The position numbers and the translations under genes were made by a program. The notes under the pieces were generated by a model that was not told the origin of the DNA, did not search any database, and worked only from the letters and a program-made list of their open reading frames with translations. 26,253 nucleotides of DNA from an uncultured Aquincola sp. (lineage in GTDB: Bacteria > Pseudomonadota > Gammaproteobacteria > Burkholderiales > Burkholderiaceae), in the NCBI GenBank assembly GCA_937883885.1, contig CAKZXL010000699.1, positions 1 to 26,253 of the forward strand, in the 5' to 3' direction. Shown one piece after another: positions 38 to 25,120 of this stretch. Position 1 is the first letter of the stretch. Every line of letters starts with the position of its first letter.

Positions 38-266
38 GGCGCGGTCCTCGTTCGGTGGCTTCAGGATCTGAAGGCCGTGCTCTGTCGAGCGCGTGACCGA
101 AAGGGTAGGAGCCGGCCGCTGCCGCAGCGCCGCGGAATGGCGCGTTTGCGAGGGGGGTTTCGGGGTTGGTCGGATAGTTGTGCGGCGTCGCCGGGAGCGC
201 TGCAAGAACCGTCTAGACTCTGTCAGATACATTTCCCGCAGCGATGTAGGGGGAGGGAGGGACGCC
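38..266. promoter_or_regulatory. Presumed upstream control region of the dpdE-dpdD operon
   Basis: This stretch lacks convincing coding content. The frame upstream of dpdE is open from a GTG at 93, but its translation is arginine-rich and low in complexity, as is common for noncoding GC-rich DNA. It must contain the promoter for the 18-kb plus-strand operon unless transcription enters from outside the window. I see no clear -35/-10 pair; AT-richer bases around 222-240 are the most likely place for a -10. A purine-rich ribosome binding site lies at its end (252-260). Confidence 0.35.
252..260 (+). promoter_or_regulatory. Strong Shine-Dalgarno that selects the dpdE start
   Basis: GGAGGGAGG ends 6 bases before the TTG at 267. 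This is the best ribosome binding site near the beginning of the operon. The GTG at 93, which would give a longer protein, has only a weak GAAGG some 18 bases upstream. The site therefore favours TTG 267 as the dpdE start. Confidence 0.55.
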
Positions 267-9900: not shown

Positions 9901-10049
9901 ACGCCTTGGCTTTGCTCGACAGAGTTTTGCGGGACCTGGATCGGGCAGCCGACTCGCAACTAAGCACGCTTGGCGGCGCGGACATCGGGGCCATGTTGAC
10001 AGGCTTGCAGACTGATCTTGAGGCGATCACCAAGGAGTTCGGGCAATGA
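6978..10049 (+). CDS. dpdH: DpdH, large P-loop ATPase with poly-proline linker
   Basis: A 1023-residue protein with a Walker A motif GESGVGKS at 77-84 and a likely Walker B, LVLLIEDFA, with acidic residues E320-D321. The layout resembles large AAA/STAND-like ATPases of defence systems such as BREX BrxC, but this is analogy only. After about residue 580 comes a Gly/Ser/Lys-rich stretch and then ten consecutive prolines (596-605). A second, helical half follows with no motif I recognise. The two halves are thus probably separate modules joined by a rigid rod. Translation through ten prolines should depend on EF-P. ATGA overlaps join it to dpdG and dpdI. Probable role: nucleotide-driven sensor or motor of the restriction complex. 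Confidence 0.85.
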   Translation: MTSLSDFWPSPQHIAECIRTEAEVVDDAVLLAVHEPGPLITRTANGAVERPATEADLLASLMRDASDGSAVLVAITGESGVGKSHLVRWLHAQLIRHPRRDQLVIVLVPKTASLRQVVERILQPLQGEAYSKLLVELSQTVDHLRPGHAAAMLCTALSLVLEQKFTEGMASLKSTDREDRELRERLALTRVLRDLIREPEVFDQWFRTPLERIVRQTIEGGSEQQTGEQRRFLPADLDPPESYTPDGSRRTVQAALQQLTRNDGASRPLAAEILQEALDPALRDVFQFSRALGQRTIEEIVDGIRQQLLKDGKELVLLIEDFAALAGIQQPLLNLMIAESDHGGVRVRAPIRTALAVTDGFLPSRQTILTRAKREWLIPNTAATPQAIIDRMVSLAGRYLNAARWGAKALREQFEVNPAGEIEGWVKPFPTALSDDDLHRLSAFGDSPQGYPLFPLSALAIESIARRELSPGGELRLNPRAFIDTVLRQTLSHRSLYESRAFPPANFKGAAPNATVQIALKARGMPQEQLERLAPVLDYWAGNPGNLSDAPRAAKGVFEAFDLPWPFDTPLDIAKDPAKGGGKGSGRAPVPQPVSPPPPPPPPPPAPELEYLNAWSKGSIDQRYARRVRNLLAEALKDRIDWTVHRLKSRSIEAAHLWLPFASVGNPSNEPKFVVAAEARPLDPVLLAGLAALERWSDNKKSWDYTNADADYPIAQQLLDRIEVQAIAWHTTSAEQQAGVALKLLQRQALLLRLSRAVEPRTPPLSDYYAGLPQPPWEPDAADTQPAAVIARAISRAEAARATVSTIVSRSVGCFQGDGDTVQAIDLRRTKSAWRQPLPEAGTMLISMQLGDFKTAADETFNASRVEGLLKRYSAATTHVLPTIRERLSDWEGAGPATQLLEQLQQAQKAGLFALITSGSFEQSKRAVETLSGEEGRQLIRQALAFKEPDPQSSIESRLLAWSALNMRQLVAVSDALALLDRVLRDLDRAADSQLSTLGGADIGAMLTGLQTDLEAITKEFGQ
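8763..8792 (+). repeat. Ten-codon proline run in dpdH
   Basis: Ten consecutive CCN codons encode P596-P605 of DpdH. All four proline codons are used in mixture, so the run is not a simple mononucleotide or trinucleotide slippage repeat; this suggests that the amino-acid sequence is selected. Confidence 0.9.
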
Positions 10050-10771
10050 CCACTCTCGTGCAGCGTTGCCAGACCTTGGAAGCCAAGATCAAGTCCCTGG
10101 CACAGGCCAAGAGCCTTGCCACCGACTTGAAACACATCCAGCAGCGCACGGGGGAGTGGCAGGCCCGCCACTCCAAGCTGATGAATCTGCGTGCTCAGAC
10201 CGCACCCTTGACCCTAGCGAGCCAAGATGCGGCAACTTTGGCCTCGAAGAAGGGCGCGCTTCGCCAGAATGCGCAGAAGGTGCTGTCCCGCCTGCTCGAA
10301 AAGGATGACATCAAGGAACTCACCCGCGATGCGGCCTGGACGCGCCTGCTCAATGCCTGCGAAGGCTTCACCGATGAGCTCGATGCGGCTGGTCGCAGGG
10401 CCTGGCGGGCCCATCTGGAGCAACTCGGCACCCTTGAGAGTCCGAACACCCTGCGCTTGCGTACGCCGCCGATGCCCTCCAACGACGATGCGTTGCAGGC
10501 CTATCAGGTCAGCTACGCCGCTTTTTCAGCGATCGCACGCTTGGAACTGCCCCGATCCCCTGACGACCTCGTGCAGATCTCTGCCCATGTGGCGTCGTGT
10601 CGACAGGCCTTCGCTCGACTTGCATTCGACTTGCCGGACGAGGTCAAGGCGTTCTATGACGCCATCTATGCAGGCACCGCGACCCTTGCTCACGTCACCG
10701 CGACCGTCGCGAAGTGGCTTGACGAGAAAGGGCAGTTGGATCGCTTCCGCGTTCGGAGTGCCCATCAGTGA
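10046..10771 (+). CDS. dpdI: DpdI, small helical protein between DpdH and DpdJ
   Basis: A 241-residue protein, mostly helical, assigned DpdI by position. Residues 1-50 have the heptad-like pattern of a coiled coil (LEAKIKSLAQAKSLATDLKH), and no catalytic motif is visible. Its ATG overlaps the dpdH stop (ATGA), and its TGA overlaps the GTG start of dpdJ (GTGA). The likely role is structural, connecting DpdH and DpdJ, but nothing in the sequence proves it. Confidence 0.75.
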   Translation: MTTLVQRCQTLEAKIKSLAQAKSLATDLKHIQQRTGEWQARHSKLMNLRAQTAPLTLASQDAATLASKKGALRQNAQKVLSRLLEKDDIKELTRDAAWTRLLNACEGFTDELDAAGRRAWRAHLEQLGTLESPNTLRLRTPPMPSNDDALQAYQVSYAAFSAIARLELPRSPDDLVQISAHVASCRQAFARLAFDLPDEVKAFYDAIYAGTATLAHVTATVAKWLDEKGQLDRFRVRSAHQ

Positions 10772-13700
10772 GTCTTGCACCTGACCTGGCGCTGGCCGAA
10801 GCGGCTCTTGATCGTTTGGAGCGACTGGAAGTACGCGTTCTCGTCTGGGGACTGGTCGACAGCGCGCTGAGCGCGTCAGAGGTTGAAGAAACGCTGCGAG
10901 ACGTCCTGAACGAACGCCAGGATATTGCCGCCGATCCGAAGTGCACGATCGACACGGAAGCTGCGCTCCAGAAACGCCTGATCGAACTCGGTCACCTGTT
11001 CGCTGTTCCCGGACGCCCGGCAACACCGCCGAGGTTTCGGACACGCATGGCTGAAGGCGTTCGCTTGTTTGCCCGCCTGCGCCAGATGTTTCCGCGCCAG
11101 CACGAGGGACCGAACTGGGTGAGCGCCGCCACCCTGGTTGCCGACTACCGCTTACTGTGGCGCCCTCGGAAGTACCCCGCGCGCAATCTGACGACCGCCG
11201 CGTCACGGGAGATCATCGCGGCGCGCGTGTCCGATCCCAGAGTGCTGACCGCCGTTGCCACGTGGTTCGATGGTGGCAGTCCAGACTGGAAGTTCGCGCG
11301 CTTCCAGATCGACGCGGCGGCCCGCATTCTTGAAGGCCTGACGGGCCGTGGCGCACGAGGCACGCTGGTATCGGCGGGAACGGGTAGCGGCAAGACGCTT
11401 GCCTTCTACTTGCCGGCGCTGACGTGGTTGGCTGCTGAGCGAAGAGCCCAACCCGGCGCTCGCGGAGTTCGGGTCCTGGCGCTATACCCCCGCAACGAAC
11501 TCTTGAAGGACCAACTCGCCGAGGTCTACCAGCAGGCGCGCAAGTTTGATGCGGATCTGGGCAAGGTCGGGACCACGCTCAGCATCGGCGTGCTCTACGG
11601 GGACACCCCTGAAACGCTGAACTCGATAGAGAAGAAGTGGCAAAAGACTCGAGGCGAGTGTCCCTTCTTTCGCTGTCCACAGCGTGGCTGTGGCGGGGGC
11701 CTGCGTCTGGCAGGCGCAGGCGGCCCTGAGAGCCAGGGCCGCCTGACCTGCGTCACATGTGGGCACATCGTCGAATCACTGCACCTGCGGTTCACCCGCA
11801 GGTCGATGATCGAGGACCCCCCCGACATCCTCTTCACTTCCGTGGAGATGATGAACCAGCGGCTCGCCGACTCGCAGATCAGACACCTCTTTGGTCTGGG
11901 GCCCAGAGCCTCAATGGCGCCTGCGCTGATGCTGCTCGACGAGGTGCACCTCTACACAGGGACCTTTGGTGCTCAGACGGCTCACCTGTTGCGGCGGTGG
12001 TCGCACCTCAGTCGCCGTCAGACCCAGTTTGTCGGGCTGTCCGCGACCATCGCCGACGGGGCTGCATTCTTCGCTTCGCTGGTCGGCCTGGACCGCAGCG
12101 TTGTCGAAGAGATTGCGCCCAACTCTGAGCACATGGTCAGTGAGGGCGCCGAGTACATGCTGGCCTTGAGAGGCGACCCTGTATCCCAGGCTGCGCTTCT
12201 TTCGACATCGATCCAGGCCCTGATGCTCGCCTCGCGCCTGCTGGACACCCGGGAAGGCTTCACCAAGGGAGTCAAGCCTTTTGCCGGCTGGCGCAGTTTC
12301 GCTTTCACGGACCAACTGGACGCAACCAACCGCCTCTTCTACGACCTCCGGGATGCGGAAGGCCGCACAGAACAGGGACACCCCGCGAATCGCCGGCACC
12401 CCAACGGCGGCCTGGCCCACTTGCGCCGCGCCGGTGCGAGCCTGCGCCGCTATGAGGGGGGACAAGATTGGAGGGCTCTCGAAGCCAATGGCCATGTACT
12501 GTCCACCCGGCATCGCGTGGAGAGAACCACGGCGCTCGATACCGGTGTCTGCCACGACGCCGAAATCGTCGTCGCTACCGCGGCGCTGGAGGTGGGCTAT
12601 GACGACCCGGCAGTCGGTGTCGTCCTGCAGCACAAGGCCCCTCGAGACATGGCGCAGTTCCTGCAGCGCAAGGGCCGGGCAGGCCGTACGCGGCATGTGC
12701 GCCCCTGGACCATCATGGTGCTGTCCGACTACGGGCGCGATCGCTTGGCCTATCAGGCATACGAACAGTTCTTCGACCCTGAACTGCCGCCCCGTGAACT
12801 GCCCCTGAGCAACCGCTACATCCGGCGTATGCAGGCGGCCAATGCGCTGATCGACTATCTCGGCGTGGCCATGCAGCAAGGCGAGCCTGCAGGTTCAGTG
12901 TGGCGGGACCTGTCTGGACCACAGTCCACCCGCTTGGAGGGTTGGTCGCGTCCGGCGGAGGACCAGATCAAGCAGAACAAGGCGAGCTTTCCGCTGAATC
13001 CGAGTCAGTGGAAAGCAGTCAAGAGTGAGGCGATTCGGATCGGCCCTGCAGGCGAACATAAGTTTGCTGGTAGCAACTGGCTGCAGGATCGCCTGCGTCG
13101 AGCCTACCTCACGCAGCAGTTGGTCAACCTGCTCAAGGATCCGGCCAAGCTAGAAGACCTCACACGCTTTCTCGTTCAAGCGCTGGCACTTTCGCGCGAG
13201 GAGGTGGACACCCTGCTGTGGGAGCATCCACGCCCGCTGTTGCTGACCGTCGTGCCCACAGCCTTGAGACGCTTGGCTACCAACTGGCGTTCCCATGGCC
13301 AGCCGGCCACCGATCGACGAAACAGCCATCCGCTTCCCGAGTTCATGCCGGGAACGCTCTTTGCAGACCTGTCTCTGCCAGAGGTCCAGCTTCAGGGCGG
13401 TCCATTCGATGACGTGGCCTTGCCCGTGCTGCAGGCCTTGAACGAATTGGCCCCGGGCAAGGTCTCCCGTCGTCTGGACCAGCCGCTGTGGATCGGACTT
13501 TCAGACGCTGAGCTTGCGGCCGATCTCGCGGCCGTGACGACGACGCGTGAGGTTGACGTCGCACTCTGGTACGACCTCGATCCCCAGTTCGACTTTCATC
13601 GTTCCGAAAACGGACAGGTGAGCGCCTGCGCTGCCTTTCGCCCCGCGGCAATCCGACTTATCTCGCCCCCACGGCGGCCGGAGCTGCGTGACACCTCCAA

Positions 13701-15483
13701 CGCGCGACTGATCTGGCGGACCCAACTGTTTGGGGGTCGCGTGGGCAATGTCTTCGAGGCTCCTTCGGACCGAGTCGGCATCGCCCGACTGGTGCAGCGC
13801 GTCTCTGTCCACACCCACGCCAGCCAGTCGGCAGCTACGGTGCGACGGTACGCCGTTGCCTCCAGCGTCAATCTGCGCGTGGCGACAGGCAACCAAACAG
13901 TCGACCACACAGCCTTGTGGCACTTTACCCAGGGCGGCAAGCCCTGCGGCATCGGATTCGAAGTCGAGGCCGACGCACTGTGCCTCCACATGAATCTTCC
14001 AGCGTCCCCGAGCGCAACTCTGCTGCAGGAGGACGCCTCCATTCTCCGCGCCGCCCGCAGCGCGCGCTTTCAATGGGAAGCCCAGCATGGCCCGGCGCTG
14101 GCCGGCACGGTGGGCAACGTCTTCCTTCGAGGCTGGCTGGCCCAGATCTTCAAAGTGGCTGCGGTAGCCCTCGCTCAGGAGCGCGAGATCACACTGGGGC
14201 AGGCGATTGACCTACTGCGGCAACCGGCTGAGCAACCCAGACTGCGGGACGTCCTGGTCACGATCTTCCAGTCCCCAGATGCGCCTGACGACGACGACCA
14301 CCCAGTACCGGGAAGGGAACCCCGCCTCCGTTCCAAGTTGAACGACGCGTTTGCCGACGCTGTGACACGCGACGCCCTCGCCACTTTGGCGCACCAGATC
14401 CTGGCCGAGCCCATTGATGCCGCTTGGGATGACTGGCTCCGACGGGCCCAACTGCAGACCTTTGCGGCGGCCCTCATGGACGCCATCCAGCAAGCTTGCC
14501 CCCAGGTGGACCCGGACGACCTCATGGTCGACACCGATCCAGGTCCAACGGAGGAAGGCAAGGAGCGAGCTGAAGTCCAGTTGTGGATCTCGGAGGCCAA
14601 CCCGGGCGGCAACGGGCTCATCGAGCAGGTGGTTGAGGCTATGGCCACTCGGACGGATCACTTCTACCGCCGCATTGAAGCCGCGCTGGGGCCCTCGGAG
14701 TTTGAGCAGATCGACATCCAGTTGCAGGACTATCTCCAGCGAATCGGAGGCCCGACGCCCGAGACCGCCTGGATCGATGCAACCCAGGCGGTCCGCTCGG
14801 CCTCGTCCACTCAAGAGGCTCAGGCAAGCCTGCTGTGTTTGCGACAGTTCCTGGCGGCCCAAGGCCATGGTGTATTCCACGGCTACGTTTCAGCGATCAG
14901 CAATCGACTGCTTCGTCCGAACAGCCCTCCTGATCTGGACCAACTCCTTGCTGAGTTGCTGCAGGCTTGGGAGGCCCTGGAGGCGCGACTGGGTGTCGAA
15001 GTCGATGCACGCGTCATGTGCGCCGTGTTCAGCCAAGACCCCCGTATTGATGCGGCATTTGCGGCCGCTGACTTCCAAGTCCCTTCCGCTCAACTCGTGA
15101 CCTGGCGGTTCAGCATGCTGCTGGGCGTGCTCTGGGCCCGGGGCCACGGACTGCGGGCCCATGCCTTGCCGGTCACAGAGCGGTTCGCCGAGGCGCCCAT
15201 GACTACGGACCGCCTCCTGTTGGCACCGTGGCTGTCGCCACCCCAACGTGCCTTGGCCGCCGATGCCGCCGATCTGCAGGAGCAACTGCACCATCAACTC
15301 AAGCAAACCGGTCAGGCCATCGTTTCGGCGGGCCCCGACCCGGCGCAGATCCAGCGAGTGATGTGCCTGGCCGCCACGGTGCCCGTGCAACTCGAGTACC
15401 TGAATGTCTATCCTCGCCTGACGTCCGTGGTCCGTGCACTGGGATCCGTGGCCCTCCACTTTGAGTTGGAGGCCACGGCATGA
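10768..15483 (+). CDS. dpdJ: DpdJ, giant DEAD/DEAH-type helicase with cysteine cluster
   Basis: Predicted superfamily 2 helicase, 1571 residues, starting at a GTG that overlaps the dpdI stop. Motifs: Walker A AGTGSGKT at 203-210; DEVH at 391-394; GLSAT then TAALEVGYDDP; motif VI QRKGRAGR at 633-640. Between motifs I and II sits a cysteine group, C298, C303, C308, C328 and C331, that looks like a zinc-binding insert. The ~900 residues after the helicase core carry no named motif. The ALEVGYDDP and QRKGRAGR motifs recall the DrmA/MrfA-type helicases, and the next gene is a PLD-like protein, as in DISARM (DrmA with DrmC). ATGA overlap with dpdK. Confidence 0.9.
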   Translation: MSLAPDLALAEAALDRLERLEVRVLVWGLVDSALSASEVEETLRDVLNERQDIAADPKCTIDTEAALQKRLIELGHLFAVPGRPATPPRFRTRMAEGVRLFARLRQMFPRQHEGPNWVSAATLVADYRLLWRPRKYPARNLTTAASREIIAARVSDPRVLTAVATWFDGGSPDWKFARFQIDAAARILEGLTGRGARGTLVSAGTGSGKTLAFYLPALTWLAAERRAQPGARGVRVLALYPRNELLKDQLAEVYQQARKFDADLGKVGTTLSIGVLYGDTPETLNSIEKKWQKTRGECPFFRCPQRGCGGGLRLAGAGGPESQGRLTCVTCGHIVESLHLRFTRRSMIEDPPDILFTSVEMMNQRLADSQIRHLFGLGPRASMAPALMLLDEVHLYTGTFGAQTAHLLRRWSHLSRRQTQFVGLSATIADGAAFFASLVGLDRSVVEEIAPNSEHMVSEGAEYMLALRGDPVSQAALLSTSIQALMLASRLLDTREGFTKGVKPFAGWRSFAFTDQLDATNRLFYDLRDAEGRTEQGHPANRRHPNGGLAHLRRAGASLRRYEGGQDWRALEANGHVLSTRHRVERTTALDTGVCHDAEIVVATAALEVGYDDPAVGVVLQHKAPRDMAQFLQRKGRAGRTRHVRPWTIMVLSDYGRDRLAYQAYEQFFDPELPPRELPLSNRYIRRMQAANALIDYLGVAMQQGEPAGSVWRDLSGPQSTRLEGWSRPAEDQIKQNKASFPLNPSQWKAVKSEAIRIGPAGEHKFAGSNWLQDRLRRAYLTQQLVNLLKDPAKLEDLTRFLVQALALSREEVDTLLWEHPRPLLLTVVPTALRRLATNWRSHGQPATDRRNSHPLPEFMPGTLFADLSLPEVQLQGGPFDDVALPVLQALNELAPGKVSRRLDQPLWIGLSDAELAADLAAVTTTREVDVALWYDLDPQFDFHRSENGQVSACAAFRPAAIRLISPPRRPELRDTSNARLIWRTQLFGGRVGNVFEAPSDRVGIARLVQRVSVHTHASQSAATVRRYAVASSVNLRVATGNQTVDHTALWHFTQGGKPCGIGFEVEADALCLHMNLPASPSATLLQEDASILRAARSARFQWEAQHGPALAGTVGNVFLRGWLAQIFKVAAVALAQEREITLGQAIDLLRQPAEQPRLRDVLVTIFQSPDAPDDDDHPVPGREPRLRSKLNDAFADAVTRDALATLAHQILAEPIDAAWDDWLRRAQLQTFAAALMDAIQQACPQVDPDDLMVDTDPGPTEEGKERAEVQLWISEANPGGNGLIEQVVEAMATRTDHFYRRIEAALGPSEFEQIDIQLQDYLQRIGGPTPETAWIDATQAVRSASSTQEAQASLLCLRQFLAAQGHGVFHGYVSAISNRLLRPNSPPDLDQLLAELLQAWEALEARLGVEVDARVMCAVFSQDPRIDAAFAAADFQVPSAQLVTWRFSMLLGVLWARGHGLRAHALPVTERFAEAPMTTDRLLLAPWLSPPQRALAADAADLQEQLHHQLKQTGQAIVSAGPDPAQIQRVMCLAATVPVQLEYLNVYPRLTSVVRALGSVALHFELEATA

Positions 15484-16010
15484 GCGGCACCCGCAAGATA
15501 TACAAGGGCGCGGTGACCTCGCAGCATGCCGTCAGGGAAGTGTTGACGATGGTGTTCGCCCAGGAGCTATTGGCGCCCAGCAGAGAAGTCTTCATCGTCG
15601 CGCCCTGGATAAGCAACATCGTCGTCTTCGACAGTCAAATCGGCCAGTACGCCACCCTCAATCCCGAGTGGGCGAAGCGCGAGATTCGTCTGGTTGAGGT
15701 CTTGGTGGCCATCGCTGCCAACGGCACCACACTTCACATCCACACCCGTCCGGACGATCACAACAGAGTCTTCAAGCGCCGCATTCAAGAAGCTCTCGGG
15801 GATGCCGGTCTGCTCGATCAACTGCGCTGGAGCGATCGCAATGCACTGCTGCACACCAAAGGCGTCTGGACAGACCGGGTTCTGATCGACGGCTCGATGA
15901 ATCTGACAGAAAGCGGTATAGCGCTTAATGAAGAGTCCGTGACGGTCTCGTTCGATCCTGAGCAGGTCGCTGCAGCCAGAGTGCACTTTGCCCTATATGA
16001 GCAGCACTGA
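15480..16010 (+). CDS. dpdK: DpdK, phospholipase D-like nuclease candidate
   Basis: A 176-residue PLD-superfamily protein. It has one complete HxKx4D motif (H125, K127, D132 in HTKGVWTD) followed by GSMN at 138-141, the usual GSxN of the family. With only one motif per chain, an active site would require a dimer, as in Nuc and BfiI. It is the only recognisable nuclease motif in the restriction operon, so it is the best candidate for the DNA-cutting subunit. There is no signal peptide, so it is probably cytoplasmic. Its ATG overlaps the dpdJ stop; its end overlaps dpdD by 14 bases. Confidence 0.88.
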   Translation: MSGTRKIYKGAVTSQHAVREVLTMVFAQELLAPSREVFIVAPWISNIVVFDSQIGQYATLNPEWAKREIRLVEVLVAIAANGTTLHIHTRPDDHNRVFKRRIQEALGDAGLLDQLRWSDRNALLHTKGVWTDRVLIDGSMNLTESGIALNEESVTVSFDPEQVAAARVHFALYEQH

Positions 16011-18225
16011 CACCCTAGTCCACCGTCAGCGGGCTGCGGCACTGCAAGCCGCGTTCTTTGCGTCGCCCAACTGCTGCAACTTCGCGACCATCAGTGACGA
16101 TCCGCAGGCGCAGAGCGCGCTGCAGACCTGCTTGAAGGGCCATGCTTCAGGCGCTGTTGACCGAGGCGTGCTCTTACCTTTCCGGGAAGCGGCCGCCGGA
16201 CCGACGGCTTGGTTTGTCTGTGCCAGTTCGATGCAGATGCTGCGCGCGCTCCAGGACGAAGTGCGCGCCTTCATTGGTCCGAGTTTTGCCGAGGAGAGGG
16301 CGCAGAGCCGGCCGCTGGACACGGCGGACCAGCACGCATTGCCTCTGATCGAAGCGGCAGGGTGGTTTTCTTTCCGCCTGGACTCGCCTGATCCGCGCAG
16401 CGACACCCGGCTGTTGAACCAGTGGCGACTCTATGGGGACCTGCTCAGCCGCCGTCCACGGGCTCCGTCGTACGTACCCAGTACGTTTCACCAGCTTCGC
16501 GCGTCGTTCGATCGCGCCTTGTTGGCACGCAATGAAGTCGCTGCCCAGGCCGCCATGGCTGCCCTGCGCGAGAGGTTCGGGGTCTCGGCAGAGAACCGCC
16601 TGTACCTCGAGATTCGGTTGGCCGCTGCCTTTGAGCGCTGGAATGCCATCTCTCAGCATCCGCTGCTGCCGAGGTTGATTCACCTTCAATTGCCACCCGA
16701 GACCTACGGCGATGTGATGGAGGCGCTGTACCGCGCGCACGCCCAGGCGTTCGAGGCTGGCCCCACCCTCGAACCACTTCTTGATCAGTTCCGAACCGAG
16801 ATCGGCGTACCGGCCCTGCCGCTCTTCAAGACCCGCCGTACCTCTCGCCGCCCCGCGGTTCTCAAAGCCTTTGTGCTCCACGAACTGCTACAGGACGAGC
16901 CTCAATGGGCGGTCTGTGAGCGATTCCTAAAGGAGCTGCCAGTTGGCGCGTTCGGCGCGGTCGACGCCCTGGTGCGCGAGCGATGCGCAAAGTCACCCCG
17001 AGCGGCTGACTTTGAAGCCGCCCGGGCGGCACTTGCGAACGAGGAGTTCGACCGAGCTTGGGAGTTGCTATGGGTCCTGCCGGACAGCGTTGACGTGTTG
17101 CGGGGCCTCATCGCGTGTGCGCGGGAGTCGGCTGACCCCGACAAGGCCGCAGCTGTCCTGACTCGACTGGACGCTTCGGAGACTGCCGTCCGGTCGAGCG
17201 TCGAGTCGGCATCGGCCACGCGCCTGGCGAATCTTCGCGCCAGCTACCGCCCGCCTGCGGGACCATCTGAGAAGGCCTCCCCCTTCGTTCGTTGGACGGA
17301 CGAGCCCGAAGAGCGCTATGTCGAACGCTGGGCGGAGTTTGTGCGCTCGGTCGAGCCGACAGCGCTGTTGGCGCACAGGGACGTAGTCAAGGTGGCCGTC
17401 GAGTGTCTGATGCACCTTGCCGTCGACGACCCGGCTCTGCTCGAGCGGCTCTACCCGCTGTGGCACGAGTTGTTCATCGAGCGTATCGATCCCACCCCGC
17501 TGCTTGTGCCGGTCTACCTGGAGATGCTGGAAGCACTTCGGGCGCGCGATGTGTTTCAGCGAACGGATCAGGAATTGATACATCAGATCCTTGTGACCAT
17601 CATTGAGAGCGGTGACGACGCATCGTATCGACAGGCGGTGGACACCGTGTCCAAGGTCTTTGGGGCAATTCGGTCCCCACATGCACTGGGCTGGGCCCTC
17701 GATGTCTGTGACTCGTTGTCCCAGCGGCGGGTCCGCGATGCCGACGCGCGCCTGAGGCTTCTCACCCAGGTCATCCAGGCGTGTCAGGAGTTCAGTTCCC
17801 GACTAGACCGTCTGCAGATCCATCAACTGCGCCTGCTCGCCAAGGAAGCCCAACTCGAATCGCCCGAGTTGCCCGAGGCCACTCCTTTAGCCGACGAGGA
17901 GACGCAGGCGCCCGACGAGACACCCTACAGGGTCGCGATCTACAGCCTCGATGAAGCCGCCACACGGCGCGCCGTGGAGATCTTGAAGTCGCTGCATCCC
18001 CACTGGGTCATAGACACCAACGCCGACCAAGTCTGTACCGATAGGCTCAAGGCCTTGGCCCACAAAGCCAACGTGTTTGTCTTCGCCTGGCGATGCAGCA
18101 AGCATGCCGCCTACTACTGTGTGAAGGCCAGCAGCCAGAAGGAGAACCTGGTCATGGCCCGCGGCGTAGGCACCACCAGCCTGGTGGCCGCCGCCGTCGA
18201 ATTCCTGCGCGGACAACCGGCCTAG
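15997..18225 (+). CDS. dpdD: DpdD, large helical Dpd protein with DUF2325-like tail
   Basis: A 742-residue protein from ATG 15997; a TTG nine bases upstream would add three residues and is less likely. It overlaps dpdK by 14 bases, the only junction in this operon that is not a 4-base overlap. Residues ~1-630 are mostly alpha-helical and may contain helical repeats; no catalytic motif is evident. After an acidic linker, residues ~643-738 form a compact alpha/beta-looking domain (YRVAIYSLDEA, ANVFVFAWRCSKHAA, GVGTTSLVAA) that resembles DUF2325. The Dpd assignment is from size, position and the rest of the cluster being accounted for. Its TAG shares CTAG with the queE stop on the other strand. 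Confidence 0.78.
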   Translation: MSSTDTLVHRQRAAALQAAFFASPNCCNFATISDDPQAQSALQTCLKGHASGAVDRGVLLPFREAAAGPTAWFVCASSMQMLRALQDEVRAFIGPSFAEERAQSRPLDTADQHALPLIEAAGWFSFRLDSPDPRSDTRLLNQWRLYGDLLSRRPRAPSYVPSTFHQLRASFDRALLARNEVAAQAAMAALRERFGVSAENRLYLEIRLAAAFERWNAISQHPLLPRLIHLQLPPETYGDVMEALYRAHAQAFEAGPTLEPLLDQFRTEIGVPALPLFKTRRTSRRPAVLKAFVLHELLQDEPQWAVCERFLKELPVGAFGAVDALVRERCAKSPRAADFEAARAALANEEFDRAWELLWVLPDSVDVLRGLIACARESADPDKAAAVLTRLDASETAVRSSVESASATRLANLRASYRPPAGPSEKASPFVRWTDEPEERYVERWAEFVRSVEPTALLAHRDVVKVAVECLMHLAVDDPALLERLYPLWHELFIERIDPTPLLVPVYLEMLEALRARDVFQRTDQELIHQILVTIIESGDDASYRQAVDTVSKVFGAIRSPHALGWALDVCDSLSQRRVRDADARLRLLTQVIQACQEFSSRLDRLQIHQLRLLAKEAQLESPELPEATPLADEETQAPDETPYRVAIYSLDEAATRRAVEILKSLHPHWVIDTNADQVCTDRLKALAHKANVFVFAWRCSKHAAYYCVKASSQKENLVMARGVGTTSLVAAAVEFLRGQPA
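18222..18225. other. Shared CTAG: stop codons of dpdD (+) and queE (-)
   Basis: The palindromic CTAG gives TAG for dpdD at 18223-18225 on the plus strand and TAG for queE at 18224-18222 on the minus strand. The two convergent operons therefore meet with no intergenic base and no room for a terminator outside coding sequence. Confidence 0.95.
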
Positions 18226-18863
18226 CGAATCCCCAGCATCTTGTGCGTCTGCAGCGACAGTCGCCACTGAGGATGCGCTTGGCAGTACGCCACCGCCTTC
18301 GCCGTATTGCGCGAGGCCTCCAGCCCATCCATCGGCTGCAGCAGGAAATGGTCGAACTGCAGTTCCGACCAGGGCAGTGCGTCAGGCATCAACCCCGGCT
18401 GCGGGAACACCAGCTTGAGTTCATGTCCCCGTCGCTGCACCCACTCGGCTCCCGCCTTGGGACTGACGCACACCCAGTCAATGCCTTCGGGTGCTGCAAT
18501 CGTTCCATTCGTCTCAACCGCAATCCGAAACCCCCATGCATGAAGCGCATCGATCAGTGCACGGTCGACCTGCAGCAGTGGTTCGCCGCCGGTTGCCACG
18601 ACCAGCCGATGCCGCCTATCGCCCTCAGGCCACAGCGCCGCGATCTTGTCAGCCAAGCGTTCGGCCGTCTCGAACTTGCCGCCCAGGGTCCCATCGGTCC
18701 CCACGAAGTCCGTGTCGCAGAAGCGGCAGACCGCCGACGCCCGATCCGCCTCGCGCCCCGTCCACAGGTTGCAGCCCGCAAAGCGGAGGAATACTGCCGG
18801 CATGCCCATCTGCAGACCTTCGCCCTGCAGCGTGTAGAAGATCTCCTTGACCGAGTACGTCAT
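18222..18863 (-). CDS. queE: QueE, 7-carboxy-7-deazaguanine synthase (radical SAM)
   Basis: Radical SAM enzyme that converts 6-carboxytetrahydropterin to 7-carboxy-7-deazaguanine, the second dedicated step to preQ0. The 213-residue protein has the cluster-binding cysteines C31, C46 and C49, the CX14CX2C form found in many proteobacterial QueE proteins instead of the classical CX3CX2C. Also visible: the N-terminal FYTLQGEG, ATGGEPLLQ (the GGEP motif of radical SAM enzymes) and VETNGT. It starts 3 bases after the queD stop. Last gene of the minus-strand operon. Confidence 0.95.
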   Translation of the reverse strand: MTYSVKEIFYTLQGEGLQMGMPAVFLRFAGCNLWTGREADRASAVCRFCDTDFVGTDGTLGGKFETAERLADKIAALWPEGDRRHRLVVATGGEPLLQVDRALIDALHAWGFRIAVETNGTIAAPEGIDWVCVSPKAGAEWVQRRGHELKLVFPQPGLMPDALPWSELQFDHFLLQPMDGLEASRNTAKAVAYCQAHPQWRLSLQTHKMLGIR

Positions 18864-18866
18864 GTC

Positions 18867-19976
18867 CTACACCGGCAAGGCAGGTCCCGCCAAGTCCACG
18901 CCCACCAGCGAGCCACAGCCCTCGGACTCGAACAGGTCGACCCGGGTCAGTTGGGGCAGTTCGCGACGGGTGCGCTCATGCAACCAGCGCGCAATCGTCG
19001 TCGTGTCGCCGTCGGCCAGGACCGCCTGTTCATGCAGCGGGTGGTGATCCAGCGACTTGAAAATCGGATCGAACACCGCCTTCACGTCCCCGAAGTCCAC
19101 AGTCCATCCCATGACTTGGTCCAGCGGTGCCCCCAGATGAAGCCGCAGCGTATAGGTGTGCCCGTGGACCCGATGCCTCGGATCACTGGCCGGTGCGTGG
19201 CGGAATTGCACCGCGCTGTCGACGGTGAAGTCCTTCCAGATCCGGTAGTTGGCACCGTCGTAGGTCGCGCCGCACGAGGCCGTCTCGTAGACCGTCACCC
19301 AGGACATCGCGGGCAGTTCAGGTTTCAAGCGCTCCCACAACCATGACGAGATCATCTCGCTGGTGGGATTGGACAGGCCCGGGATCTCGTTCAGGCAGCG
19401 GTAGTTGACCTGCGCCGCGATCGGCGCCCAGAGGTCGTCCAGGTGGTCATAGTCGATGCTCAGGTCGGCTCCCGCCAGATCCTGGTCGGCATGGATGGTG
19501 ACTTCGAAGCCATGCCCATGCAGGCGTCCGCACTTGTGGCCCAGTGGCACATGCGGCAGGCGATGGGCCGCCTGGAACCGGTAGCGCCGCCACACATGCG
19601 CATGATCAAGGGCGTCGACCTCGACGCCCTGATTTGGGGTGCTTTGCACGGCCACTCGATCAATGCCCGGGGCATCCAACCTGCCACGAATCCACCGCGC
19701 CAGGTTTTCGTCGGTCGGTTGGGCCACCTTGTCGTTGAGCAACCCGTAATTCAGCAGACCGGCGCAGCGATCGATCTGTCGTTGCAGGGCCGCCACCTCG
19801 CCGCCGGGGTAGGTCACCCAGTCCGCCGGCACGCGGGCACACGCTGTGGCCGTAAACCCATGACCGTGCAGGTTGCGGCATCGATGCCCGGCCGGCAGCA
19901 TGTCGACCTGCCGGGCGGCCTCGAACCGGCTGCTGGCGGCATGCAGCACCGACAGCGAAAGAGGGGTGGTGCTCAT
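18867..19976 (-). CDS. queD: QueD triple-domain fusion, 6-carboxytetrahydropterin synthase
   Basis: Makes 6-carboxytetrahydropterin from dihydroneopterin triphosphate. Normal QueD has ~120 residues; this one has 369 and consists of three tandem QueD domains (about 8-118, 127-240 and 246-360). Compared with E. coli QueD: domain 1 keeps the catalytic Cys (C33) and HGH (37-39) but has R22 for the first zinc His, N76-Y77 for Asp-His, and S112 for the pterin-binding Glu. Domain 2 keeps all zinc His (H138, H153, H155), C149 and E231, but again has Asn-Tyr (191-192) for Asp-His. Domain 3 keeps D310-H311 and E350 but has V256 for a zinc His and R267 for Cys. In this family Cys and Asp-His of one site come from different subunits, so domains 2 and 3 could form a whole site. 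The ATG at 19976 overlaps the queC stop (ATGA); an open 67-codon extension upstream is inside queC and rejected. Confidence 0.92.
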
Positions 19977-20689
19977 GCGGCCTCCGTGGCGTTGAAGATC
20001 TCGTAGCCCTTGCGCCGCAGGTCGCAGGCAGGACACTGCCCACAGCCATAGCCCCAGGCGTTCTGGGTTGTGTGGTCGCCCAGGTAGCAGGTGTGGGTTT
20101 CCGTGCGGATCAACTCCACAAGCGCAGCACCGCCCAGATCCTTCGCCATGCGCCAGGTCTGGGCCTTGTCCAGCCACATTAGGGGCGTCTCGACGACCAT
20201 CGGGGCGTCGAGCCCCAGGCTGATCGCCACCTGCAGTGCCTTGAGCGTGTTGTCACGGCAGTCCGGATAGCCGGAGTAGTCGGTCTCGCACATCCCGCCC
20301 ACCAGCACCGACAGACCACGCCTGTAGGCCACCGCGGCAGCAAAGGTGAAGAACAGCAGATTGCGCCCCGGCACAAAGGTCGTAGGCAGTCCGGATGCCG
20401 CGAACTGGATCTCGCGATCCTGGGTGAGGGCGGTGTCGCTCACCTGACCCAGTAGCGCGAGGTCAAGCATGTGGTCGGCGCCCAAACGCGGCGCCCAGGC
20501 CGGGAACTCCGCCTTCAACCGCTCCAGCACCACCTTGCGGCAGTCCAGTTCCACCGCATGGCGCTGCCCATAGTGAAATCCGACCGTCTCGACCTGGGCG
20601 TAGCGATCCAGGGCCCAGGCCAGGCACGTGGCCGAGTCCTGACCTCCGGAAAACAGCACCAGCGCTTTGCGTTCCATGATGTCATCCAT
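19973..20689 (-). CDS. queC: QueC, 7-cyano-7-deazaguanine (preQ0) synthase
   Basis: ATP-dependent enzyme converting 7-carboxy-7-deazaguanine to preQ0, the base that DpdA inserts. The 238-residue protein has the PP-loop SGGQDS at 14-19 and the four zinc cysteines C201, C216, C219 and C222 (CGQCPAC). Length is normal for the family. Two starts are possible: ATG 20689, which overlaps the dpdB1 stop by 8 bases, or ATG 20677 (MERKALVL), which is closer to usual QueC N-termini. It overlaps queD by ATGA. Confidence 0.95.
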
Positions 20690-21761
20690 TGGCGATGCGA
20701 CGCGGCTTGCGCAGCGCCTTCTTGAGGGAGCTGACGAGGTAGCGCGTCAGCAGATCGATGTCGCTCGGCGTGTTCTGGATACCATTCCACGGACGCGTAT
20801 CCCATGGCTCCAAGGGCCACTGGCCGCTGGTCCAGGCTGTGTGTGGCGCTAGCAGTCGCAAGCCCGGTTCGAACTGGTCCCGCTCTGTTGCCCCTTCAAG
20901 GCTGTACAGGTGGTCCATGACGAAGCCCATGGCCACGATTCCGGCGCCGTGCCGCAGTCGCGAGAAGCGCGGGGCCATGCCATACCAAGCCGAGCCGTAG
21001 ACCTTGGCCACGGCATGAAAGAACTCGTTGACCAACTGAAACGCTCGCTCCTCGCGGTCATCGAAGTGCATCAGGCTGCGAATTGCACCGTCAGAGGCCG
21101 AGTTCATGATCAAGCGCTGCATCGCGGTGTCGCTGATCATCCCTGTCGGGTTCGTGTGCTGCCGTACCTCGCCGTGCAGCGAACTCCCGCGCGTGAAGTT
21201 GAGCATGTCGACGATGCGCGCCGAGAACTTGCGCTGAGTGAATCGCTCAGGCAAACCCTCCACGTTCGGCAGCAACTCGTAGATCAGAGTTTTCGGCAGA
21301 GGACGCGTGTTGTTGATCAAGACGAACTGCTGGCGTAGCTCGTTGTAGTCCTTGCAGACCAGAGCCGAAACGAATACTTGGAAGCCCGGCTTATCGATAC
21401 CTGCCAGCGCCGAAAGCCGCTGCTGCCCGTCGACGACGAATCCCGGGGGTTGGTTCTTCGGTACGTCGATCTGGACCTGCACCAGCCCATCGGAAAGGTC
21501 TCTGACGGTCACGCCGTCAATGAAGGCAACGATCACGGCGTTGGGCAGTAACGCATCCTCGCGCGTCAGGTAGTCGCGGATGTCGCGAATGTGAGAGGCA
21601 ACCTGATGCCGCTGAAAGCCCTTGAGCTGCCCATCATCGGCCCGTGCGACACGCTCGATCGCAGCAAACGTCAGCACATCGGAAGGGGCGGCGGCAAACA
21701 CAAACACATCGTGGCCTGGCGCCTGCTGTGCCCGGACTGCTTTGAATCGGTATGTGGTCAC
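20682..21761 (-). CDS. dpdB: DpdB (copy 1), DGQQR-type partner of DpdA
   Basis: Partner protein needed with DpdA for insertion of preQ0 into DNA; DpdB is reported to have ATPase activity in the founding system. The 359-residue protein shows LKGFQR at 46-51, DGQQRLSAL at 111-119 and [20 protein letters not shown] at 146-165, the pattern of the DGQHR/ParB-like family that also includes DndB. It starts at GTG 21761, whose GTGA overlaps the dpdA stop. It is the shorter of two clearly related but divergent copies; the other is at 23055-24206. Which copy corresponds to the single DpdB of other clusters cannot be told here. Confidence 0.88.
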
Positions 21762-23053
21762 GCGGCCTCCTTGATAGTTTTGCTTAGGTGACGGTGGTAG
21801 ACGCCGAGGTTGTGCATTCCCCGGCGCTTATTGCGGTTGCTGGACCGAAAGATGATCACTTCGACACCGATATCACGGCACACCGCGCAGTCGCAGTCTT
21901 TCCACGGCTTGTGTTCCAGTGTTCGCTGCACAAGAGCAGCGGTTTTGTGCAGCGCTTTGTCCTGCTGCGCGGCGCCTGTACCGTCGCCGCGCAGCAGGAA
22001 CTGGTGATAGTCCATCACGGCATCCAGCGTTGCCTCCGCCGAAGATGCCCCACGGTCATATGCCCGTACCTCATGCAACGCTCGCCGCTCTCGCCGCAAC
22101 AGGTCTTCTGCGCTGAACTGACCGCGCTTGATGCCTTGCATCAGGCGTGCGTTCTCCGTGGCTTGAGGAATGCGGATAGCGGTGTAGTACTCCAGTCGAC
22201 CGTCTGAGCCTTCACTGTAGTAGTTCGCCTTCTCGTCCTTGAATGCACGGATCAGCGGTGAAGTCGAGTCGAAACTTGTGATTCCGAAGCCCGTGAACTC
22301 TTGGATGCTGTCGGCTTTCGCAAAGCCAAGCAGATGAATGTCAGTCTCTGGGCGAATCCGTTCTCGGATCGCTGTCAACACGGCCTTGATGGCGTCGACC
22401 TTCAAGGGAACTAGGCCCCCGATGGCCAAATATCGGTACCCCATCCGCTCGAGTCGATGTGCCGCCTCGGCCATGCTCTTGGGTGACCACCCCTGCACGG
22501 GTCCGAGTGGCTCGAAGGGCATTCCCTCGCGCTTGACAAGTCCTAGGAATACCTCGGCGTTGGCCAGCGTGATGGCAAACCGCTGCCGGATCGCGGCGTC
22601 CACCGCACGCTCCGAAGGGTTGGCGAGGTCGCAGTCAAAGATGATGTGGTCCGGGGAAATGCCGTGGGTAAACCCGGCTTCGGTATAGAACTCCACTACC
22701 TCCTCGGGAGCGTAGGCTGGCACCGGATGCTCCACGTAGGCAAAGGCGCCGCAGTCACCCAGCAGCATTGCGTCCTTGAACCTCGGCCCACCATAGCGCA
22801 AGAACTGCCGAGCGCCATCTCGCAGCAAGCGCTGCTCCTCCCTTGTGGAGTAGCGAACCTTTGAAGCTGCCACACCTGTGGCCTGCCGCACGGCGCTCAT
22901 GGACACCAACAACCCGTCATAGGGCGCTGGGTCCATGAACTCATGCGCATAGACGTCGGACCAGTAGCGCTCACGGCCAGGACTGGAGCGATCGTTCAGG
23001 AAGTCGTACCCAGGGTCGACATAGTCCTGAGTATCCGAGTACAGGAACTTCAT
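21758..23053 (-). CDS. dpdA: DpdA, DNA-guanine transglycosylase (TGT relative)
   Basis: Exchanges guanine in DNA for preQ0. The 431-residue protein from ATG 23053 shows the TGT plan: LLGDCGAFAYV, with D100 corresponding to the DSGGFQ aspartate; AIGGLVPLK like the TGT GGLAVGE loop; SFDSTSPLIR, with D262 at the position of the nucleophilic aspartate of TGT (FDCVLPTR); and a zinc site CxCx2Cx21H with C387, C389, C392 and H414. The start is 1 base after the dpdB2 stop; an open extension of 12 residues (MPMPPARSPRSS) runs into dpdB2 and is less likely. Lies between two dpdB copies, with both of which it is closely coupled. Confidence 0.95.
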   Translation of the reverse strand: MKFLYSDTQDYVDPGYDFLNDRSSPGRERYWSDVYAHEFMDPAPYDGLLVSMSAVRQATGVAASKVRYSTREEQRLLRDGARQFLRYGGPRFKDAMLLGDCGAFAYVEHPVPAYAPEEVVEFYTEAGFTHGISPDHIIFDCDLANPSERAVDAAIRQRFAITLANAEVFLGLVKREGMPFEPLGPVQGWSPKSMAEAAHRLERMGYRYLAIGGLVPLKVDAIKAVLTAIRERIRPETDIHLLGFAKADSIQEFTGFGITSFDSTSPLIRAFKDEKANYYSEGSDGRLEYYTAIRIPQATENARLMQGIKRGQFSAEDLLRRERRALHEVRAYDRGASSAEATLDAVMDYHQFLLRGDGTGAAQQDKALHKTAALVQRTLEHKPWKDCDCAVCRDIGVEVIIFRSSNRNKRRGMHNLGVYHRHLSKTIKEAA

Positions 23054-23054
23054 G

Positions 23055-24206
23055 CTACTTCGAGGCGATCTTGCTGGCGGCATAGGCACGCACCAACGTG
23101 TCCTGCAGCTTCTTTACGTGGGGGGGAGTGTTCTGCAGTTCGTTCCAAGCCAACCCTAGCGTCTCCCACGTTCCCTTGGTCCAACGGCAAGACGGCGCAA
23201 CCTTCTCGAGTTCGCGCTGCACGGCAGCTACCTCCGAGTTGGGGGGTAGTCGCGCATAGATCGCATCCATGAGCAAGCCCATGGCCATCAAGCCAGCGCT
23301 GTGCATCAGTCGACTCTGCTTCGGATCCTTGCCCCAAGCGTCGGGAAATACGGCCTTCACCGCCGACCAGTACGTTGTCAGGATGCGATACATCCCGGCG
23401 ACATCACCGCCGCCCTCCCGTCCGACCGACTTGAACGGTGCCAAGGCCCCCAGCGGATTTGACAGGCTGCTCTTGATCAGGGATAGCAGCGCGGTATCCG
23501 TGACCACTGCCTCGGACGTCCCGCGGTCCGAGGCACGCTTGACCAGACGGAAGAACGGCGATGCCGGATCCTGGTTAAGGGTGCTCACCAGTTCCGCAGG
23601 CACCTTGCGCGCCACCAGATCCCGCGGAAGAACGAAGGTCGCGGTCTCGGGCAACAACTCATTGATCAAGCGCGTCGGCAGGGGCTTGGCCTTGTTCACC
23701 AAGATGAACTGCTCGCGCTGCACTGAGAGCCGGTCGGACACGAAGCCAATCACAGGTACCGCCAAATCCTTGTGTTGCGCCTGGGATAGCGCAATCGATC
23801 GCTGCTGACCATCGACGATCCAGGCAACGCGCTGGCCCTCTGCATAGATCGGCAAGGTCAAGGTGCCACTCTCAGACACCCTGGTATCGCCCGCAGGCTT
23901 GCTGCCACGCGAAGCAGCGAACTTCACGTCTGGCGCAAGTGCCAGGATGATGGCGTTAGGAAAGAGGACGTCGCCCTGATTTAGGTAGTCCACGATGCCT
24001 TTGACGTGCTGGCGAATCTCTGGACGTTGAAATCCCTTGAGTTCATCAGCCGCGTCACGCTCGATGCGCGAAATGTCTGCCACTCGGACAATGTCACCGC
24101 CCTTGATGAAGAACGCGTAGACGTCCAGTCCTTCGCCCTGCGTGGTGTGAAGCGCGCGCACAACCAACTCTTGTCGACCGGTGGTCGTCTTCTTGACGGC
24201 CTTCAT
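23055..24206 (-). CDS. dpdB: DpdB (copy 2), second DGQQR-type protein
   Basis: A second DpdB-like protein, 383 residues from ATG 24206, 2 bases after the dpdC stop. It carries the same landmarks as copy 1: LKGFQR (56-61), DVLFPNAIILA, DGQQRSIAL from 132, and FILVNKAKPLPTRLINELLP. It is longer, mainly through a Ser/Gly-containing insert before the DGQQR motif (around residues 98-122). Outside the motifs the two copies have diverged widely, which argues against a recent duplication. They could form a heterodimer around DpdA or recognise different DNA. An alternative start 12 codons upstream would overlap dpdC. Confidence 0.87.
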   Translation of the reverse strand: MKAVKKTTTGRQELVVRALHTTQGEGLDVYAFFIKGGDIVRVADISRIERDAADELKGFQRPEIRQHVKGIVDYLNQGDVLFPNAIILALAPDVKFAASRGSKPAGDTRVSESGTLTLPIYAEGQRVAWIVDGQQRSIALSQAQHKDLAVPVIGFVSDRLSVQREQFILVNKAKPLPTRLINELLPETATFVLPRDLVARKVPAELVSTLNQDPASPFFRLVKRASDRGTSEAVVTDTALLSLIKSSLSNPLGALAPFKSVGREGGGDVAGMYRILTTYWSAVKAVFPDAWGKDPKQSRLMHSAGLMAMGLLMDAIYARLPPNSEVAAVQRELEKVAPSCRWTKGTWETLGLAWNELQNTPPHVKKLQDTLVRAYAASKIASK

Positions 24207-24208
24207 CT

Positions 24209-25120
24209 TCACGCTCGCAGTTGTGCGGACAAGCCCTGCCAAAGTCGGCTGAACCGCTTCTGTTCGCAGGAGATCCGAGCTTCATCTCGCAGATAGCGCA
24301 GCAGTTTTGTGCTGCTGCCCGAGTGCCGGGTCCACTGTGCTTCTAGGACTTTCAGAATCTCGTCATCGGTCATGCGCTGACCCGTCGCACGATGTCGCCG
24401 CCGACGGTGGGCGAGGCTCGCTGCCACAGTCTCATGAGACTCCTCGAGCGGCATCTCCGTCGCCTGGAGAACTTCCACGAAGTGACGTAAGGCGCGCTGA
24501 GCAAAGTCCGATCGCGTGCCTGCATAGCCGCGCACCGACTCAAGACGGTCGTCATAGGGCATCACACAGCCCTGCAGGTGGCGCGGCAAGCACTGGACAC
24601 CAGCAGCGGATGTGAAGATCCGCAGGGATCTGGCCCTGGCCGGTGTGACCTGTGCCAGGTCGTCTTGCACCAACCGCAAGTAGCCGCTGGGCAGCGCCAA
24701 CAGCGTCGGCGCCTTGGCGATCAACCTGGACAGAGGAGCCGGCGAAGTTTCGGTCAACGCGTTCCACCACTGCGGCACATGGCATCCCACCGCTCTCAAC
24801 CGGCGATCCAGATCCGTTCCCGCCGCCACGGTGCACTCATAGGCTGGGACGGGTTGGTCGTGGCGGATCAGCCCCAGGCCTGCAGACACCACATACCAAG
24901 GAGCGCCCAGGGCTGCTGCTGCGGCCGCCGTGTCCACGATCGATCTACCCTGGTAGAGGCTTTCAGCTGCCATGTCGGCACTGGCCGTCCCGATAGCTCG
25001 ACGCCAGGCCTGTGCCAAACGAGGCAGCGAGGCGCACTCAGGCAGCACTGCCACGTCTACGCGATGGCGGCCAGCCTTGCGTTGGGTACAGCTGGTGACG
25101 ATGGCGACAGTTACAGTCAC
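24209..25120 (-). CDS. dpdC: DpdC, converts preQ0 in DNA to the amide (ADG)
   Basis: In the founding Dpd system DpdC converts DNA-borne preQ0 to 2'-deoxy-7-amido-7-deazaguanosine. This 303-residue protein starts with VTSCTQRKAG, where C11 begins an SCTxRK motif, followed by LYQGRS (55-60) and VVSAGLGLI (77-85), the pattern of DUF6884/YaaA-like proteins to which DpdC is related. The C-terminal ~100 residues are basic and helical (a cluster of Arg/His around 238-246), possibly DNA-binding. It begins at GTG 25120 with no clear Shine-Dalgarno, and is the first gene of the minus-strand operon. An upstream start in the open frame cannot be excluded. Confidence 0.85.
   Translation of the reverse strand: MTVTVAIVTSCTQRKAGRHRVDVAVLPECASLPRLAQAWRRAIGTASADMAAESLYQGRSIVDTAAAAAALGAPWYVVSAGLGLIRHDQPVPAYECTVAAGTDLDRRLRAVGCHVPQWWNALTETSPAPLSRLIAKAPTLLALPSGYLRLVQDDLAQVTPARARSLRIFTSAAGVQCLPRHLQGCVMPYDDRLESVRGYAGTRSDFAQRALRHFVEVLQATEMPLEESHETVAASLAHRRRRHRATGQRMTDDEILKVLEAQWTRHSGSSTKLLRYLRDEARISCEQKRFSRLWQGLSAQLRA

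Follow-up and report, generated by a model that had tools for sequence, protein, structure and literature searches.

The locus examined here raises the question of whether a polypeptide made of three fused QueD domains, among which the catalytic residues are divided, can work as a 6-carboxytetrahydropterin synthase (QueD), an enzyme that contributes to the making of modified tRNA and DNA bases, and by way of how many active sites. The gene, which we call tri-QueD, lies in a stretch of 26,253 nucleotides from an uncultured Aquincola sp. (contig CAKZXL010000699.1 of assembly GCA_937883885.1, positions 1 to 26,253 of the forward strand), referred to below as the window. The PF01242 profile of the 6-pyruvoyl-tetrahydropterin synthase (PTPS) family matched the 369-residue product in three stretches (8.1e-56; 187.7 bits against a cut-off of 22.4), which assigns it the PTPS fold and bears out the three QueD repeats described in an earlier note on this DNA. 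The QueD equivalog TIGR03367 scored 140.5 bits against a cut-off of 89.25, a value for the whole protein in which the three stretches are summed. QueD usually has one PTPS domain per chain, and tri-QueD departs from this architecture, which forms no part of the reaction-based definition of the enzyme; its three domains are joined end to end, with junctions that are fixed and near-minimal in length. By open reading frame, the gene starts with the ATG at 19976. An alternative GTG would extend the frame to 20177, and we favour the ATG because it fits the lengths of most relatives—the majority of those listed from the protein-set searches described below measuring 364–369 residues. The gene, its domains and its key codons are as follows.

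18867..19976, minus strand: tri-QueD gene, 369 residues, three PTPS/QueD domains (open reading frame translation; PF01242; TIGR03367)
19608..19952, minus strand: domain 1 (residues 9–123), half-site incomplete, with R22 at the first zinc-His and S112 at the Glu (domain alignment)
19251..19607, minus strand: domain 2 (residues 124–242), full zinc/Cys/Glu half-site (domain alignment)
18897..19250, minus strand: domain 3 (residues 243–360), bearing Asp-His, without the first zinc His and Cys (domain alignment)
19563..19565, minus strand: H138 codon, zinc ligand by homology (domain alignment, 449 relatives)
19530..19532, minus strand: C149 codon, catalytic Cys by homology, CxxxHGH motif (domain alignment, 449 relatives)
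19512..19520, minus strand: H153-G154-H155 codons, zinc ligands by homology (domain alignment, 449 relatives)
19044..19049, minus strand: D310-H311 codons, catalytic Asp-His by homology (translation, domain alignment, 449 relatives)

Alignment of the domains with single-domain QueDs placed, for domains 1, 2 and 3 in turn, R22, H138 and V256 in the first zinc-His column; C33, C149 and R267 in the Cys column; H37-H39, H153-H155 and H271-H273 in the second and third zinc-His columns; and N76-Y77, N191-Y192 and D310-H311 in the Asp-His columns. This agrees with what the earlier note had read by eye, namely that the full trio of zinc His occurs only in domain 2, that domains 1 and 2 keep the Cys with Asn-Tyr replacing Asp-His, and that Asp-His is confined to domain 3, which has lost the Cys and one zinc His. 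Two positions extend that description: the Glu column holds S112, E231 and E350, the last of these absent from the note's list, and a second Glu position, unlisted there, holds E90 in domain 1 and E207 in domain 2 but T326 in domain 3. We take the latter to be the pterin-anchor position of PTPS. The CxxxHGH of domain 2 is the typical PTPS-I motif in the portion of PMC5445326 consulted.

The same division runs through the family. Three protein-set searches returned 2588, 2313 and 2524 proteins (E ≤ 1e-10, 0.55–1.75 of the query length), not all of which need be three-domain proteins; the best 120 of each search were listed, with source names that include Alicycliphilus, Pusillimonas, Caldimonas, Nitrosomonas, Ferrovum, Magnetococcales, Competibacter, Thiorhodovibrio and other Chromatiaceae. 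Scanning genomes with two peptide patterns yielded 324 relatives (339 matches), of which the best 80 supplied the loci discussed below, mostly titled Burkholderiales or genera within Burkholderiales. Pooling 361 proteins (the window's included) with 94 locus translations, and dropping identical rows, gave 449 sequences of 321–430 residues (408 of them at 360–370), which are the nearest relatives of three queries and not a random sample; their identity to the window protein has a minimum of 46% and a median of 60%. With gaps scored as misses, and the eight columns of domains 2 and 3 free of gaps, each of the six half-site residues of domain 2 (H138, C149, H153, H155, E207, E231) is kept in all 449. 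The corresponding counts for zinc His 1, Cys, zinc His 2, zinc His 3, anchor Glu and Glu are 0, 111, 448, 448, 435 and 0 in domain 1, and 0, 1, 441, 442, 2 and 385 in domain 3. The complete half-site occurs in 0, 449 and 0 sequences for domains 1, 2 and 3, and the complete Asp-His pair in 36, 81 and 449 (Asp and His singly: 337 and 36, 112 and 139, 449 and 449). Every chain carries all the QueD residues—the zinc His trio, the CxxxHGH motif, the Glu and the Asp-His pair—spread over domains 2 and 3, the sole pairing of domains that is complete in all 449 sequences. The per-domain losses that the earlier note had proposed looking for in other QueDs of about 370 residues therefore recur in 449 of 449, and a division shared throughout this many distinct relatives exceeds chance; a sequencing or assembly artefact was ruled out as its cause for the same reason. 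Mean entropy is highest in domain 1 (1.48 bits), followed by domain 3 (1.26) and domain 2 (0.97).

As single-domain controls we used 21 rows, composed of the 16 best single matches of a search of the phylum and five others. All eight residues are kept in 16/16 of the former, as they are in the Sinorhizobium and Euhalothece rows among the latter, and the Caulobacter, Skermanella and Aminobacter rows lack the Cys and the Glu. Single-domain QueD therefore holds the eight residues in one domain in 18 of 21 rows, whereas tri-QueD distributes one set over two domains.

In canonical PTPS, the Asp-His of a site come from another subunit, and the title of Burgisser 1995 reportedly speaks of an 'intersubunit catalytic triad'. 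We consider it very likely that tri-QueD is a working QueD, a covalent pseudo-trimer whose one active site is formed by domains 2 and 3, because the division of residues is conserved, the predicted models are compact, and 20 of 23 genomes, all with tgt, queA and queC, showed no other PTPS-family protein; ring closure, contact between domains 2 and 3, and catalysis are what we infer. The trimer ring of 6-carboxytetrahydropterin synthase would have been turned into one polypeptide, its three end-to-end domains folding, with no free linker, into a pseudo-threefold ring of T-folds in which catalysis takes place at a single one of three clefts between domains. At this cleft, domain 2 would provide the zinc site (H138, H153, H155), Cys149 and both Glu (E207, E231), and domain 3 would contribute Asp310-His311. 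The other two clefts would be dead, domain 1 lacking zinc His 1 and the Glu, and domain 3 lacking zinc His 1, the Cys and the anchor Glu. Domain 1 would close the ring and be mainly structural, as the earlier note had suggested: its variability and incomplete half-site speak for this role, and the retention of H37, H39 and E90 in most relatives leaves room for a second one. The composite site and pseudo-trimer put forward in that note gain support from the 449/449 division, the compact model and the genome context.

AlphaFold gave compact single-chain models, with a predicted template modeling score (pTM) of 0.90, both for the window protein and for a relative 54% identical to it. In the structure prediction that the earlier note had called for, the chain forms one compact body and domains 2 and 3 superpose on the two successive T-folds of urate oxidase; adjacent tri-QueD domains in general pack, in superpositions of the models, as the tandem T-folds of that enzyme do. 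E. coli QueD matches domain 2 best on superposition. This match, together with the retention of an Asp-His pair of its own in 81 of the 449 domains 2, would suit a scheme in which domain 2 alone is the enzyme, working with the Asp-His of another domain 2 or with none, and domains 1 and 3 are a mere folding scaffold. We regard that scheme as quite improbable, given that the Asp-His of domain 2 is incomplete in 368 of 449 sequences, yet domain 3 keeps the pair in 449 of 449 despite an incomplete zinc site. Apart from the domain 3 loop at residues 287–291 (window 19104–19118), no run of three or more residues has a predicted local distance difference test score (pLDDT) below 50. This loop ends in W291, which is at least 99.5% conserved in the 449 sequences, and the equivalent loop is also weak in the model of the second relative; the loop may order upon substrate binding or in a dimer of chains.

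The genomic surroundings of the relatives are those expected of a QueD. In the window, queE and queC adjoin tri-QueD, and queE, queC, tgt and queA occur in relatives. With the window QueE as query, queE was found immediately downstream of tri-QueD at 70 of the 80 loci (separated from it by 1–499 bases in 56 and by none in 14), and was not found there in L006, L007, L009, L025, L034, L040, L050, L068, L074 and L077, some of which lie near contig ends. We also searched with the PF01242 profile 23 genomes, mostly isolates, reached by 24 loci chosen from the 80. Matches to tgt, queA and queC exceeded the family cut-offs in 23/23, and tri-QueD was the sole PTPS-family protein found in 20: in 18 genomes, the PF01242 matches were just the three domains of one tri-QueD, and two genomes (G003, G023) carried two tri-QueDs each and no other match. 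One site should therefore suffice for these genomes. In Ramlibacter alkalitolerans (L049, genome G016), which has tgt and queA, no PTPS-family protein was found other than the tri-QueD that lies next to dpd genes, and this island may provide preQ0 for tRNA too.

These surroundings also bear on whether tri-QueD could be a related pterin enzyme or binding protein instead of a carboxytetrahydropterin synthase. The accessible part of PMC5445326 describes PTPS subfamilies as varied in function and hard to separate by similarity, and we found no report of the activity of a three-domain member in the literature searched. Such a function nevertheless seems to us highly improbable in view of the PTPS-I signature CxxxHGH in domain 2, the adjacent queE in 70 of 80 loci, the position as sole PTPS-family protein in 20 of the 23 genomes having tgt, queA and queC, and the single-domain QueD that adjoins queE in three other Dpd islands.

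Several results weigh against a self-contained, one-site QueD. Three of the 23 genomes (G002, G005, G006) also carry a single-domain QueD, and genome completeness is unstated, so the absence of a second QueD elsewhere could reflect an assembly gap. Loss of both Cys and Glu in 3 of 21 single-domain rows means that these residues are not universal in the family. The half-site leftovers in domains 1 and 3 (H37 and H39 in 448, E90 in 435, H271 in 441, H273 in 442 and E350 in 385 of 449) exceed structural need. Finally, mean-field direct coupling analysis of the 449 rows (effective number 276) gave ring closure no support, the map between domains 3 and 1 correlating with the mean of the 1–2 and 2–3 maps at r 0.011, below the transposed control at 0.052 (null standard deviation 0.009). 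The near-site pairs K148–D303 and K148–I328 were discarded as evidence, since several top pairs merely split deep clades (judged by eye) and the ring-closure test had failed.

The coevolution result would fit a composite site formed between chains, with domain 2 of one and domain 3 of another brought together through domain swapping or an open multi-chain assembly. PTPS is described as a dimer of trimers in the section of PMC7546909 available, which makes a dimer of chains likely anyway, and the pLDDT of the conserved loop at 287–291 is what a loop requiring a partner might show. The fixed, near-minimal junctions and the single-chain pTM of 0.90 in two relatives favour a self-contained chain, and we hold an arrangement between chains to be unlikely. 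Returning to the one-site pseudo-trimer, the two dead clefts keep some residues (H37, H39, D89, E90 and S112 in domain 1; H271, H273 and E350 in domain 3) and may have a binding role. It is conceivable, if doubtful, that tri-QueD is a trimodular T-fold enzyme with a single site whose dead clefts were kept for another job, either binding a second pterin or a regulator, or passing product to QueE.

To address the origin of the fusion, we cut 16 tri-QueDs into domains and built a tree with the 21 single-domain rows; it rests on only 121 columns, and meeting long branches were flagged. Domains 1, 2 and 3 each form one clade (100/100, 99/100 and 100/97), domain 2 groups tentatively with the single-domain rows (82/82), and domain 1 sits on the longest branch. 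This fits a single fusion event after which two of the sites decayed. A 292-residue frame in Solimonas (G006), a supposed two-domain intermediate, has two PTPS matches, both weak (3.2e-7 and 5.2e-7). A three-domain match was present at E ≤ 1e-144 in 14 of 398 evenly drawn genomes of the phylum (the centre, G004, counted), and at E ≤ 1e-100 in 14 of 200 genomes of the centre's order (centre counted). The next matches in the phylum, at 1.3e-38 or weaker, are single domains that align with domain 2.

Compared with known systems, canonical QueD/PTPS-I (E. coli QueD, PDB 4NTK/4NTM/4NTN; P. aeruginosa 2OBA) has one domain per chain, in contrast to the three fused in tri-QueD. Urate oxidase and GTP cyclohydrolase IB have two T-folds per chain, as the superpositions also indicate, and their successive domains pack as those of tri-QueD do in superposed models. 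In urate oxidase, according to the part of PMC2490695 seen, the active sites are located where the subunits of a dimer meet, the partner subunit contributing Thr57*/Lys10*, and neither metal nor cofactor is needed. Bimodular QueF (V. cholerae, E. coli) likewise consists of tandem T-folds from duplication; its motif and Cys/Glu sit in separate T-folds that meet in one site, as far as the excerpt of PMC5372742 goes. The same excerpt gives QueF as a two-domain nitrile reductase, with the central tunnel missing in the V. cholerae enzyme, whereas tri-QueD has three domains and a predicted zinc site. It matches PTPS/QueD-type families only and no QueF family, which makes it an analogue and not a QueF member. 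Because bimodular QueF separates its site residues in two T-folds, the principle of a site split over fused T-folds is already known; what the literature searched does not describe is its extension to three domains, to a QueD, and to a self-contained ring having a single site. We found no description of a three-domain QueD in the literature searched on QueD, PTPS, T-folds and Dpd, although primary QueD or Dpd papers may mention one; according to PMC5445326 (in part), InterPro gives 18 domain architectures for the PTPS family, among which the three-domain form may be included.

The gene sits in a full Dpd island, a system placing 7-deazaguanine into DNA, whose other features are as follows.

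18222..18863, minus strand: queE, 7-carboxy-7-deazaguanine synthase of Cx14CxxC type (TIGR04508, 345.9 bits, cut-off 240)
19973..20689, minus strand: queC, overlapping the tri-QueD start (TIGR00364, 199.1 bits, cut-off 150.3)
20682..21761, minus strand: DpdB, second copy (NF041060, 374.1 bits, cut-off 300)
21758..23089, minus strand: DpdA, Dpd-system transglycosylase (NF041059, 539.9 bits, cut-off 200)
23055..24242, minus strand: DpdB, first copy (NF041060, 450.2 bits, cut-off 300)
24209..25120, minus strand: DpdC, DUF6884-like (PADLOC DpdC, 2.5e-85; no NCBIfam match)
93..18225, plus strand: Dpd restriction operon, DpdE, F, G, H, I, J, K and D (NCBIfam equivalogs over cut-off save DpdI, at 64.9 against 150 bits)

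The minus-strand genes, in the order dpdC-dpdB-dpdA-dpdB-queC-triQueD-queE, overlap or almost touch. DpdA is flanked by two DpdB paralogues, an order (dpdB-dpdA-dpdB) annotated in Skermanella rosea too, and no FolE match was found among the window proteins scanned against family libraries. In the window, tri-QueD would feed preQ0 to the Dpd island; where relatives lack Dpd, it would carry out the QueD step of queuosine synthesis. QueD (PF01242) is present in 78% of dpd islands in a survey consulted in part (PMC11888242). As in the window, QueD lies beside queE and near dpdA/dpdB in the plasmid Dpd islands of Caulobacter sp. S6, Sinorhizobium americanum and Skermanella rosea; these alphaproteobacterial islands differ in having a single-domain QueD of 118–125 residues and a reversed gene order (queE first), with no queC listed for Skermanella. 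The single-domain QueDs of the Caulobacter sp. S6 and Skermanella rosea islands and of an Aminobacter plasmid (L113:1606-1977, L118:9014-9391 and L114:2510-2881) have Ser/Phe for the catalytic Cys and Arg for the Glu, and keep the zinc His, the other Glu and Asp-His. In an Enterobacter Dpd island, QueD was not seen within 6 kb.

A dpdA or dpdD match occurs in at least 13 of the 80 loci—a lower bound, because some contigs are short—and 67 show neither. On a 94-row locus tree (quick search, no bootstrap), the Dpd label switches 6 times, at least 4 of them by starred branches, so that tri-QueD and Dpd have been joined or separated more than once; on these counts, tri-QueD was ruled out as Dpd-specific. 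One scan of viral contigs with six peptide patterns of P0001 found no tri-QueD relative, and plasmid and phage collections gave 167 and 6 matching records with no single place covering 80% of the query. The tri-QueD at L006:6834-7952 lies on a long branch within the window's clade; its contig of 15.9 kb showed neither dpd genes nor queC or queE as neighbours, and it is perhaps an orphan. The titles of L011, L022 and L023 (Rhizobium, Actinomycetales, Bordetella parapertussis) clash with their tree positions, and these contigs are perhaps misbinned or mislabelled metagenome-assembled sequences.

Tri-QueD would be a natural example of gene fusion making a symmetric ring enzyme asymmetric; each member examined has two of its three sites broken. 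The view that the Cys-Asp-His triad of PTPS spans subunits could be tested by mutating individual domains within one chain, something a homohexamer rules out. The listed protein relatives bear the plain name '6-carboxytetrahydropterin synthase', an annotation that, if our reading is true, conceals a three-domain, one-site enzyme; the QueD step of queuosine synthesis, and of Dpd modification in some islands, would then be performed by one site per three domains in many Pseudomonadota.
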